Assembly (NCBI GenBank): GCA_025201865.1
Contig: MU602773.1
Location: 2,780-41,461, forward strand
Reading direction: 5' to 3'
DNA from: Ramicandelaber brevisporus
Taxonomy: Eukaryota; Kickxellomycota; Ramicandelaberales; Ramicandelaberaceae
DNA length: 38,682 nt
The notes beneath the pieces are model-generated. The model did not search any database, was not told where the DNA came from, and saw only the letters and a list, made by a program, of their open reading frames with translations. Numbering within the stretch: the first letter of the stretch is position 1; each line of letters starts with the position of its first letter. A program made the position numbers and the translations under genes. Of this stretch, positions 17,667 to 35,155 are shown one piece after another.

Positions 17667-17996
17667 ATGAGCGACCAGGCCTCCAAGACTCCAGCAGTGG
17701 TTAAGCCAAGAAAGCAGTACAATGATCGAATTCCACGTAGTGAGCCGCTTCATCGACGGGTGTATGATGCGGTCCAGTCAACGTTAATCACCTTAATTTC
17801 ATTCCTTGTGCTCTACGTGACAATGCCAGAGAGTGGGTCGTCAACAGCATCGTATGTGTGGTATAGTATGAAAGTCCTCTATCTGGCAGGTATATACTCG
17901 ATTCTCCACGTTCAATCACGGGCAGTCGGTGCCAGCCAGTGCGACGTTCTCGGGATTCTGTTCCCGGCTGTTCTCGGTCTGTTCTTCGTAATCTAA
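17667..17996 (+). CDS. Small three-helix membrane protein, unrecognised
   Basis: 109 residues and not recognised. A polar basic N-terminus of about 30 residues (contains KPRKQYNDRIPRSEPLHRR) is followed by three hydrophobic segments: about 37-54 (STLITLISFLVLYVTMP), 64-82 (VWYSMKVLYLAGIYSILHV) and 91-109 (CDVLGILFPAVLGLFFVI), the last running to the C-terminus. The basic residues before helix 1 suggest a cytosolic N-terminus. A proper ATG, an uninterrupted frame and normal codon use support a real gene, but nothing in the sequence names a function. It ends 74 bp from the tyrosinase-fold gene, tail to tail. Candidates such as ER or secretory-pathway small subunits cannot be distinguished. Confidence 0.6.
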   Translation: MSDQASKTPAVVKPRKQYNDRIPRSEPLHRRVYDAVQSTLITLISFLVLYVTMPESGSSTASYVWYSMKVLYLAGIYSILHVQSRAVGASQCDVLGILFPAVLGLFFVI

Positions 17997-18070: not shown

Positions 18071-18901
18071 TTAGGAGTAGGAGTAGCACATGGATGCCTT
18101 CTTGAGATTAAGGACGTCGCGGATCTTGTACTTCTCGTTGGCAAAGCCGGGGACGTATGCAGACAGGTTGCCGCCTTGGGCATAGGCGGTGGTGCGCGTC
18201 TTGGAGTCGGCATTCTGCCAGGCGGTGTAGATGCGGTCGATCATGGCGAGGTGGAAGTACAGAACCGGGTCGTTTGGCCGGAAGCGAGTGGCCATGTCGC
18301 CGCCCATGAACAGCTGCACGGCCCGGTCCGCACCCTGCAGCGCCGAGTTGATGCCGTCGTACGCCTTCTCCTGGCGCAGCATGGCGTCGACACTCGACTG
18401 CGGCCATGGCGTCACGCTGGTGCTGAACTGGCGCTGCACGCAGTGCGGGGTCGGGGTCATCATGGTCCAGCTGAAGAGCCAGTCGTCGACGCAGTGGTTG
18501 TTGTCGGGGTTGCCGTCGCTGCCCCACATGAAGCTGTTGAAGATGGTGCTCTCGGCCGGACGCGCGGCATCCTGAGCCCAGTTGAAGTACGGCAGCGTGA
18601 TGGACGGGTCGAGCGACTGCAGCTGGATCTCGAGCGCGCGGATGAATGAGCGGATGTATGGCAGGAACTCGGGCTTGCCGTCGAAGCTGTCGAGGTCGCC
18701 GTTCCACTTCTGCGCAAAGTAGTCGAGCCAGCCGAGCGTCTTGAGGCGGTCGAATGCCGCGGCGAGGTTGTAGCCCTCCTGCACGGTCAGCTGGCGCAGC
18801 TCCTTGCGCAGCTTTGGCGCGGAGCACGTCTGGGCAGCGGCAAGGAGTGCGCTGCTGCAGCCGAGCGCTGCGACCACGGTGAGTTTGGAGAAGAGCTTCA
18901 T
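18071..18901 (-). CDS. Secreted tyrosinase-fold protein lacking copper ligands (predicted pseudoenzyme)
   Basis: 276 residues with a signal peptide (about 1-23). The fold is clearly tyrosinase: EFLPYIRSFIRALE (78-91), LDPSITLPYFNWA (97-109), MGGDM (199-203), PNDPVLYFHLAMIDRIYTAW (209-228) and a CYSYS end. The copper ligands are gone. In the CuA signature H-x(4)-F-L-P-W-H-R the two His are Asp74 and Ile83. In CuB the two His before GGDM are Asp192 and Gln196, and the His of D-P-x-F-x(3)-H-x(3)-D is Leu218. The first CuA His has no counterpart near 55-70. Oxidase or monooxygenase activity is therefore not expected, while the intact frame argues for a retained structural or binding role. The gene is markedly GC-richer than its neighbours, producing long spurious frames on the other strand. 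Confidence 0.88.
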   Translation of the reverse strand: MKLFSKLTVVAALGCSSALLAAAQTCSAPKLRKELRQLTVQEGYNLAAAFDRLKTLGWLDYFAQKWNGDLDSFDGKPEFLPYIRSFIRALEIQLQSLDPSITLPYFNWAQDAARPAESTIFNSFMWGSDGNPDNNHCVDDWLFSWTMMTPTPHCVQRQFSTSVTPWPQSSVDAMLRQEKAYDGINSALQGADRAVQLFMGGDMATRFRPNDPVLYFHLAMIDRIYTAWQNADSKTRTTAYAQGGNLSAYVPGFANEKYKIRDVLNLKKASMCYSYS

Positions 18902-19232: not shown

Positions 19233-19304
19233 GACTCCATGGCGCAATGGTAGCGCGTTCGCCTCCAGAGCGAAAGGCTGGGTGTTCGAGTCACTCTGGG
19301 GTCA
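19233..19304 (+). tRNA. tRNA-Trp (CCA)
   Basis: 72 nt, intronless. The acceptor stem GACTCCA pairs with TGGGGTC plus discriminator A. The D arm is GCGC/GCGC. The anticodon stem is TTCGC/GCGAA with loop CTCCAGA, anticodon CCA at 19265-19267. The T arm is GGGTG/CACTC around loop TTCGAGT. The internal A box (TGGCGCAATGG) and B box (GTTCGAGTC) match the Pol III pattern. Confidence 0.96.
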
Positions 19305-32638: not shown

Positions 32639-35155
32639 ATGTGGTCTCGTTTTGCCCGAAACACCGTCACACCAACAGCACGTCGCCTCTTCTCCACGGG
32701 CGGCAGCAGCGGCGGTGGTAACGCCGGAGGCAGCCAGGGACGCCGTCTCGCCATGTACGCGGGTGGTGCTGCTGCTGCTGCACTTGCCGCGACATCTGCG
32801 TACAAGCTGTGGCGCTCAAGCCAAGATGACACCGCCAGAGCAACCACCACCGCCGAGCGCGTTCTGGCCCTCGCTGGCCTTGGTGTGCCTGCCTATGCTG
32901 ATCACGAGGCCGGCTCTCCATCTCTAACAACGGAGAGCGGCAAGCCGCACGCGTTCTGGACGCCGCCGTCGCGTCGCGAGATGCTGGCCATGCTTGCCGC
33001 CAGCGCCGAAAGCGACGGCGAAGAGTTTGACCTTCTGATCATTGGCGGTGGCGCTACCGGCACTGGCGCAGTGCTGGACGCAGCTACACGTGGATTGCGT
33101 GTTGCTCTCGTGGAGCGTGACGACTTTGCCAGCGGAACCTCTTCCCGTTCAACCAAGCTGGTGCATGGCGGTGTCCGCTATCTCGAAAAGGCATTCCGTG
33201 AACTTGACTACGAGCAATACAAGCTGGTGTGCGAGGCACTGCATGAGCGCCGTACTTTCTTGGACATTGCGCCGTATCTGAGCACTCAGCTGCCAATCAT
33301 GCTGCCAGTGTATAAATGGTGGCAAGTTCCGTACTACTGGGCTGGCTGTAAAGCGTACGACTTCTTTGCTGGACGCGAGGCTATCCAAAAGTCATATTTC
33401 CTGTCGCGCAGTAGAGCCATTGAAGCCTTCCCAATGCTGAAGCGCGACAATCTGGTTGGTGCATTGGTATACTTTGACGGCCAGCACAACGACTCTCGAA
33501 TGGCTGTTGCACTGGCTCTAACCGCTGTTAGCCACGGCGCTGTGGTTGCAAACCACACCGAGGTTACTGGCCTGATCAAGGAACGTGATATTGCCACTGG
33601 AGCTGAGAAGTGCCGCGGAGCTGTGGTTAGAGATACGCTTTCTGGCGAACAATTTGTAGTCAAGTGCAAAGGCATCATCAATGCCACTGGTCCATTCACT
33701 GATGCAATTCGCAAGATGGACGATCCTTCTATTCCTGACATTGTTGCTCCATCTGCTGGTGTTCACATTGTGCTGCCCAACTACTATTCTCCTGAGAACA
33801 TGGGTCTCATTGATCCCTCCACCAGCGATGGCCGTGTCATCTTCTTCCTGCCATGGCAAGGCAACGTGGTTGCTGGTACCACCGACTCGCCAACCTCGCT
33901 CACATTCGATCCAGTGCCCAAGGAGTCTGAGATCCAATGGATTCTTGACGAGGTGCGGCACTACCTGAGCCCAGACGTCAAGGTCCGCCGTGGCGATGTT
34001 CTTGCTGCCTGGTCTGGCATCCGCCCGTTGGTTCGCGACCCGAACGCTAGCAAGAACAGCACCGAGGCTTTGGTTCGCAACCACATTGTGACCACTAGCC
34101 CGAGCGGCCTCATCACGATCGCCGGTGGAAAGTGGACCACATATCGCAACATGGCCCAGGAGACAATCGACGCGGCCATCAAGGAGTTTGATCTCAAGCC
34201 ACTTACAGAATGTCGCACTGAGCGCGTCAAGTTGATTGGTTCCCATGGCTACTCGGACACCATGTTCATCAAGCTGATCCAGAACTTCGGCCTGGAGACC
34301 GAGGTTGCCAAGCACCTCGCCGCCAACTATGGCGACCGCGCCTGGGGCGTGTGCTCTCTTGCCGAGCCAACTGGCAAGCGGTTCCCAGTGTATGGGCAGC
34401 GCCTCTCTCCGCTGTATCCATACCTGGAAGCTGAGGTCAAGTACGCCATTCAGCGTGAGTATGCATGCACCGCCGTAGACGTCATTGCCAGACGTACTCG
34501 TCTCGCCTTCTTGAGTGCCCGCGCTGCCAAGGAATCTCTGCCACGCGTTATTGACATTATGGCGGCCGAGCTCAACTGGTCTACAGAGCGCAAGGAGCAG
34601 GAGCAGCGCGAAGCCATGGAGTATCTGCGCACAATGGGTCTGCCGCCGCGTGAGTCGCCTGCTGAAATCGCCAAGCTGGAGTTTGAGCCTCGCGCTGCCA
34701 TCGCTCCATCTCCATCGCTTCCTCCAGTGTCGCAAGGTGTTGATCCTCATGTTTCGCACTACGAGCGTGCTCGCTTCCATTCTGACGAGATTGGCCGATT
34801 CACAGCAGCCTTTAGCGATTACGACCGCACCGGCTCTGGCCACATCACCAGCAGCGATCTGCCCAATGTGCTGACTGCCCTCGGTCTGGACCCAACTGAC
34901 AGTTTCACCGCGTCGACTCTGACCAAAGTCACCACTGAGATTGGCATCACGAACGAGAGCGGCATTGAATTCGACGAGTATCTGGAGCTCATGTCTCGCA
35001 TGAAGGACAGCTTCTTTGACCAGCTGCAGCCAAGCGCTCAGCAAGACAACGCCACGGTTGCCAAGCAGCGCAAGCTTCGCGACTGGCTTCTGCGGCGAAA
35101 GAGCCAGGAAGAGACTGGCCGTATCCCGACAGAACGCAGCGGCGGTGGCATCTAA
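32639..35155 (+). CDS. GUT2: Mitochondrial FAD-dependent glycerol-3-phosphate dehydrogenase with C-terminal EF-hand region
   Basis: 838 residues from the ATG for MWSRFARNTV. The N-terminus is a mitochondrial presequence (Arg/Ser/Thr, no acids) with a hydrophobic Ala-rich segment (about 37-52). The FAD-binding motif is LLIIGGGATGTGA (136-141 core), then VERDDFASGTSSRSTKLVHG and GGVRYLEKAF. The C-terminal half keeps VAGTTDS, WSGIRPLV and GGKWTTYR. It donates electrons from glycerol-3-phosphate to ubiquinone at the outer face of the inner membrane. After about residue 700 there is an EF-hand pair: loop 1 DRTGSGHITSSD (729-740) is plausible for calcium, while loop 2 (TNESGIEFDE) lacks the first Asp. 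Animal GPD2 has this region; budding-yeast Gut2 does not. GC-richer than neighbours, as expected for high expression. Confidence 0.95.
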   Translation: MWSRFARNTVTPTARRLFSTGGSSGGGNAGGSQGRRLAMYAGGAAAAALAATSAYKLWRSSQDDTARATTTAERVLALAGLGVPAYADHEAGSPSLTTESGKPHAFWTPPSRREMLAMLAASAESDGEEFDLLIIGGGATGTGAVLDAATRGLRVALVERDDFASGTSSRSTKLVHGGVRYLEKAFRELDYEQYKLVCEALHERRTFLDIAPYLSTQLPIMLPVYKWWQVPYYWAGCKAYDFFAGREAIQKSYFLSRSRAIEAFPMLKRDNLVGALVYFDGQHNDSRMAVALALTAVSHGAVVANHTEVTGLIKERDIATGAEKCRGAVVRDTLSGEQFVVKCKGIINATGPFTDAIRKMDDPSIPDIVAPSAGVHIVLPNYYSPENMGLIDPSTSDGRVIFFLPWQGNVVAGTTDSPTSLTFDPVPKESEIQWILDEVRHYLSPDVKVRRGDVLAAWSGIRPLVRDPNASKNSTEALVRNHIVTTSPSGLITIAGGKWTTYRNMAQETIDAAIKEFDLKPLTECRTERVKLIGSHGYSDTMFIKLIQNFGLETEVAKHLAANYGDRAWGVCSLAEPTGKRFPVYGQRLSPLYPYLEAEVKYAIQREYACTAVDVIARRTRLAFLSARAAKESLPRVIDIMAAELNWSTERKEQEQREAMEYLRTMGLPPRESPAEIAKLEFEPRAAIAPSPSLPPVSQGVDPHVSHYERARFHSDEIGRFTAAFSDYDRTGSGHITSSDLPNVLTALGLDPTDSFTASTLTKVTTEIGITNESGIEFDEYLELMSRMKDSFFDQLQPSAQQDNATVAKQRKLRDWLLRRKSQEETGRIPTERSGGGI

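Follow-up and report, generated by a model that had tools for sequence, protein, structure and literature searches.

Six His, three at a CuA site and three at a CuB site, are what defines the type-3 copper proteins, a textbook group of metalloenzymes, and a gene that encodes the tyrosinase fold with none of these ligands raises the question of whether it is an enzyme in decay or a protein retained for something else. Such a gene lies on contig C106 of the Ramicandelaber brevisporus assembly (17.9 Mb, 510 contigs), in a window of 38,682 nucleotides (contig positions 2780–41461), the whole stretch of DNA analysed and the frame for the coordinates below. Its reading frame is intact, as originally predicted, with 276 codons and no internal stop. 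The product matches the Pfam Tyrosinase common central domain (PF00264; E 5e-18, 66.7 bits against a curated cut-off of 22.6) and its best PDB match by sequence is a Streptomyces tyrosinase (E 6e-18), with Bacillus tyrosinases matching too; these matches bear out the earlier claim of a tyrosinase core along the whole protein. The structure predicted by AF2, built on an alignment of tyrosinases, has the tyrosinase core fold, with low confidence at residues 1–3 and 8–12. The gene and the copper-site positions are as follows.

18071..18901, (-) strand: copper-free tyrosinase-fold coding sequence, 276 aa, ATG to TAA
18704..18706, (-) strand: W66, at the first CuA His position (alignment)
18680..18682, (-) strand: D74, at the second CuA His position (alignment)
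18653..18655, (-) strand: I83, at the third CuA His position (alignment)
18335..18337, (-) strand: Q189, at the position of a conserved Glu before the first CuB His, HB1 (E189Q; conservation comparison)
18326..18328, (-) strand: D192, at the first CuB His position (alignment)
18314..18316, (-) strand: Q196, at the second CuB His position (alignment)
18248..18250, (-) strand: L218, at the third CuB His position, adjoining the non-ligand H217 (alignment)

None of the six ligand positions holds His, and neither copper site has the three of a type-3 copper protein. Alignment agrees with all five replacements that had been placed from the sequence (D74, I83, D192, Q196 and L218), and the first CuA His, which had not been evident, proves to be occupied by W66. 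The CuA register is free of gaps against paralogue C71 (ARHAANLRNVHNHAQFLPWHR in the target, QKWNGDLDSFDGKPEFLPYIR in C71), and H217 aligns with a non-ligand His preceding the third CuB ligand, HB3. Placement of six His in another register, an alternative raised with the original prediction, is ruled out: the whole protein has three, at 136, 153 and 217, so no register can accommodate six. The conserved Glu that is Gln at position 189 is one we take to be the 'water keeper'. This term and the role attached to it are given in the available part of PMC11608171.

A profile search of the genome contigs gave 21 PF00264 matches, read as 20 ORFs (C254 matches in two pieces), which is a lower bound for the family; introns were ignored in reading the frames. 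The in-genome alignment holds 19 ORFs, with C409 and C430 counted once and C249 a contig-end fragment. An identical tyrosinase ORF occupies the same coordinates on the first two (C409:6840-8657 and C430:6840-8657), which is haplotig or assembly redundancy. With the target and C249 left out, 16 of the 17 full-core paralogues have all six copper His; C254 has four. Addition of 64 database proteins (two identical to C470 and C71 and bearing the name Ramicandelaber brevisporus) brought the scored rows to 81, and six His are present in 78 of these, the others being C254 with four, P0004 with two and P0008 with five. The last is probably an alignment shift rather than a loss (Q at HA2, with His three residues upstream). 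Paired six-His tyrosinase genes on C115, C170, C181 and C293 suggest local duplication in this fungus.

A tree built from 44 of the 83 rows places the target beside C71 as its sister (aLRT 95.9, UFBoot 96); the branch lengths are 0.89 for the target and 0.71 for C71. Within this tree, free of arthropod sequences, the fungal sisterhood would speak against descent from arthropod hemocyanin. Six-His tyrosinases of Kickxellomycotina (C71, which is P0009, from R. brevisporus, P0010 from Kickxella, and P0012 and P0013 from Coemansia) have the core domain, four Cys and conserved non-ligand residues in common with the target, and C71 has a similar hydrophobic start; unlike the target, all of them keep six His and continue for 118–321 residues after the YxY motif. 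When homologues were sought with the paralogue alignment left untrimmed, so that low-complexity tails probably wasted words, the search returned eight proteins among the best 7999 candidates by shared words. No orthologue was found in a close species, the target itself being the only match at E 0.01 among 877 candidates.

The losses are concentrated at the copper site. Against a reference of 23 six-His sequences (16 in-genome and 7 database) out of the 81 rows, the target keeps 30 of 35 non-ligand positions that are at least 80% conserved versus 0 of 6 ligands (Fisher p 1e-4); the non-ligand positions kept are 20 of 24 at the 90% level and 12 of 13 at the 100% level. All four conserved Cys are retained (C26, C137, C154 and C272) and probably pair into two disulfides. 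Three features mark the ends of the protein.

18830..18901, (-) strand: signal-peptide-like N terminus, residues 1–24 (hydrophobicity; cleavage site by eye)
18824..18826, (-) strand: C26, conserved Cys retained (conservation comparison)
18071..18079, (-) strand: protein end, one residue past the core YxY and then the stop, with no C-terminal extension (sequence)

A hydrophobic stretch of signal-peptide type is indeed present at the N terminus, as had been claimed (mean Kyte–Doolittle 2.14 over 12 residues starting at residue 9). At the other end, the single residue after YxY compares with 107–342 in 18 of 18 other in-genome members, one of which is the contig-end fragment, and the target has no C-terminal shielding domain of the fungal-tyrosinase kind. 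In mushroom tyrosinase, according to the accessible portion of PMC4157443, the active site is shielded by the C-terminal domain, which may serve for copper loading as well. Its absence here is in keeping with a protein that needs neither copper loading nor restraint of quinone chemistry; alone it proves nothing, because several six-His tyrosinases outside this genome (P0005, P0006) likewise end at the core.

Codon usage is strongly biased. With a reference set of one GAPDH gene and two for HSP70, the target has a CAI of 0.54 and a GC3 of 0.89, the maxima of 19 neighbouring ORFs being 0.43 and 0.61, and 1000 random codings at the GC3 of the target gave a CAI of at most 0.45. With two HSP70 genes and actin as the reference the values are 0.64 for the target and 0.52 for the highest of the 19 neighbours; with two GAPDH genes they are 0.45 and 0.37. 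The CAI of 14 of the 17 paralogues spans 0.17–0.68. The reference genes themselves reach 0.70–0.84 (leave-one-out) at a GC3 of 0.70–0.75, which the target exceeds, so local base composition may explain part of the bias; flanking GC is 0.55 upstream and 0.42 downstream. The codon bias from which strong expression was originally suggested thus stands above the neighbours and the GC3-matched null, but the CAI falls below that of the reference genes.

We consider it probable that the target is a copper-free secreted protein that acts by binding or structure, its fold kept under selection after loss of the six ligands. A six-His secreted fungal tyrosinase would have duplicated, leaving the target as the sister of C71, and this duplicate would have lost its six copper ligands together with the C-terminal extension and the conserved Glu that precedes HB1, with the tyrosinase fold and the four Cys retained under selection. 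The product would bind no copper pair or other metal and have no phenol oxidase activity; it would be exported and abundant, and may act stoichiometrically outside the cell as a wall, matrix or phenolic-binding protein. The analogy is with the hexamerins and cryptocyanins of arthropods, abundant secreted proteins in which an oxygen-binding fold is put to new use without its copper.

The main rival, which we regard as unlikely, is that the target forms a complex with active secreted tyrosinases (one or several, for example C71) and regulates, stabilises or chaperones them. Active enzymes are often regulated by inactive paralogues, and 16 six-His paralogues share the genome. A rate near that of C71 would suit a shared interface, and this is what most outgroups give: with ligands excluded, no significant difference is seen with 8 of 10, the target being significantly faster with P0010 (32 versus 16 specific changes) and P0012 (37 versus 21); with ligands counted, it is significantly faster with 4 of 10. 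No partner lies beside the gene, however, since contig C106 carries no PF00264 match other than the target.

It is improbable that D74, D192 and Q196, with some residue close by, hold another metal ion in the old pocket. Acidic or polar side chains do occupy three of the six sites, as such a use might require, but none of W66, I83 and L218 is a metal ligand and the protein has only its three His. Asp has a shorter side chain than His, and from the same backbone sites it would be unlikely to reach an ion in common. Nor do the replacements in P0004 (R, R, H, L, H, M) show a pattern common with the target. With three His remaining and no replacement shared with P0004, the original suggestion of a fold reused with another cofactor is left unsupported.

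Decay, with the gene caught ahead of its first stop codon, is more improbable still. What speaks for it is that there is one sequence, without a close orthologue for direct dN/dS, and that the NG86 estimate (dN/dS) to C3, 0.83/0.98, is close to 1, though saturated. The estimate to C71 is 0.63/1.59, and as pairwise values near saturation both are weak evidence. A 5.3-kb DNA search of the genome gave no second allele or haplotig for pN/pS, its two other matches being about 83 bases over a tRNA-Trp and 45 bases within a P450 ORF. Against decay, neutral drift simulations started from the target's own gene, as a stand-in for the ancestor, left the frame stop-free in 0 of 300 runs at 50% identity, and at 60% and 70% identity it stayed open in 2 and 5 of 300 runs, respectively; the losses moreover cluster at the copper site, and codon bias is present. 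The protein combines lost catalytic residues and a recognisable domain, as a pseudoenzyme does, with indirect signs that selection keeps the gene (ligand-concentrated loss, drift runs and codon bias, dN/dS being saturated). Selection on the target appears supported, as far as a single sequence and its distant paralogues allow it to be judged, and the description of a maintained pseudoenzyme rather than a decaying one gains from the drift runs, the ligand-concentrated loss, the rate relative to C71 and the codon bias. An artefact, whether misalignment with His in another register or a chimeric assembly region, is scarcely credible, nothing having been found in its favour: the protein has three His overall, the register around CuA is gap-free, the match on C106 is one continuous piece and the 5.3-kb search gave no second copy.

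Two other tyrosinase folds in the set have lost ligands. P0004 (308 aa; ENA, from a contig of 3072 bases) is a second, independent ligand-poor case, which resembles the target in fold, in ligand loss (R, R, H at CuA; L, H, M at CuB) and in lacking a C-terminal extension; it differs in keeping 2 of 6 His, in lacking the conserved Cys (C31 is its sole Cys) and in grouping elsewhere. C254 (11066-14530) encodes a 1154-aa paralogue whose tyrosinase core is interrupted by a Thr-rich insert; its CuA residues are H, R and Y, two of three His being lost, and its CuB is intact. A joint clade of the target and P0004 is rejected (AU p 0.0007), as is common ancestry of the target and C254 (AU p 0.005); a joint clade of P0004 and C254 is not rejected (AU p 0.08). 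The deep losses, in the target (0 of 6 His) and P0004 (2 of 6), are both in proteins without the C-terminal domain, and C254 is half-lost at 4 of 6. Tentatively, tyrosinases may repeatedly become copper-free binding or structural proteins ('pseudotyrosinases'), the fold freed from redox chemistry being the selected product.

The closest parallels are in animals. Hexamerins, cryptocyanins and the myriapod CleHcBI2, members of the arthropod hemocyanin superfamily, resemble the target in ligand loss; in the available sections of PMC6034248 they are described as a type-3 copper lineage that lost its ligands, does not bind oxygen and is thought to serve as storage proteins. The same sections give CleHcBI2 as having 3 of 6 His replaced and put its rate of evolution at about 4.5 times that of the active paralogue, a wider gap than that between the target and C71. 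The snail Biomphalaria glabrata has Hcl-1 and Hcl-2, built of molluscan-hemocyanin functional units with His replacements (excerpts of PMC5201427): one per unit in Hcl-1 and at least one in 4 of 6 units in Hcl-2, both multi-unit animal proteins unlike the target. The same excerpts give the albumen gland as a site of Hcl-1 expression, and this protein is perhaps a functional parallel. In the vertebrate TYRP1/TYRP2 pair, TYRP2 keeps the His ligands that the target has lost (PMC3658974, available part). Total ligand loss is absent from the portions at hand of the literature on ascidian phenol oxidases and plant PPOs and of the tyrosinase review PMC11608171, and ligand loss goes unmentioned in those on mega-hemocyanin. 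Surveys may miss His-lacking proteins through such filtering as that of PMC3472199, which, in its available part, removed sequences of this kind ahead of analysis. The original statement that no such class is known to have been described must accordingly yield to the copper-less arthropod proteins and to partial loss in snail hemocyanin-like proteins, and stands in that no tyrosinase with total ligand loss, nor any fungal case, was found in the accessible parts of the literature searched.

If the favoured reading of a copper-free binding or structural protein is right, a selected and probably abundant core without its six ligands would mean that non-redox uses can maintain the fold outside animals as well. 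The target would be a natural copper-free reference that shares a small fungal genome with 16 six-His paralogues, and would open non-catalytic uses of the tyrosinase fold to experiment. Counts of phenol oxidases that rely on Pfam matches alone can be too high: the score of the target is roughly threefold the curated cut-off.

The nearest genes (a methyltransferase, a small ORF at 17667..17996, a tRNA-Trp and a cytochrome P450) form no pathway-indicating cluster that we could see. The small ORF has no Pfam match and to the eye resembles EMC6. The tRNA-Trp lies just upstream of the target (19233-19304) and has an approximately 83-base copy, 98% identical, on contig C491. A genome search for EF-Tu domain 3 gave two matches, no obvious EF-1A among them, and one is partial (C1:122292-122468) within a 15,245-codon open frame. 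Further along the window, a 420-codon open frame (33518-34780, (-) strand) runs antisense to a long ORF (32639-35155) and is probably a by-product of codon usage.
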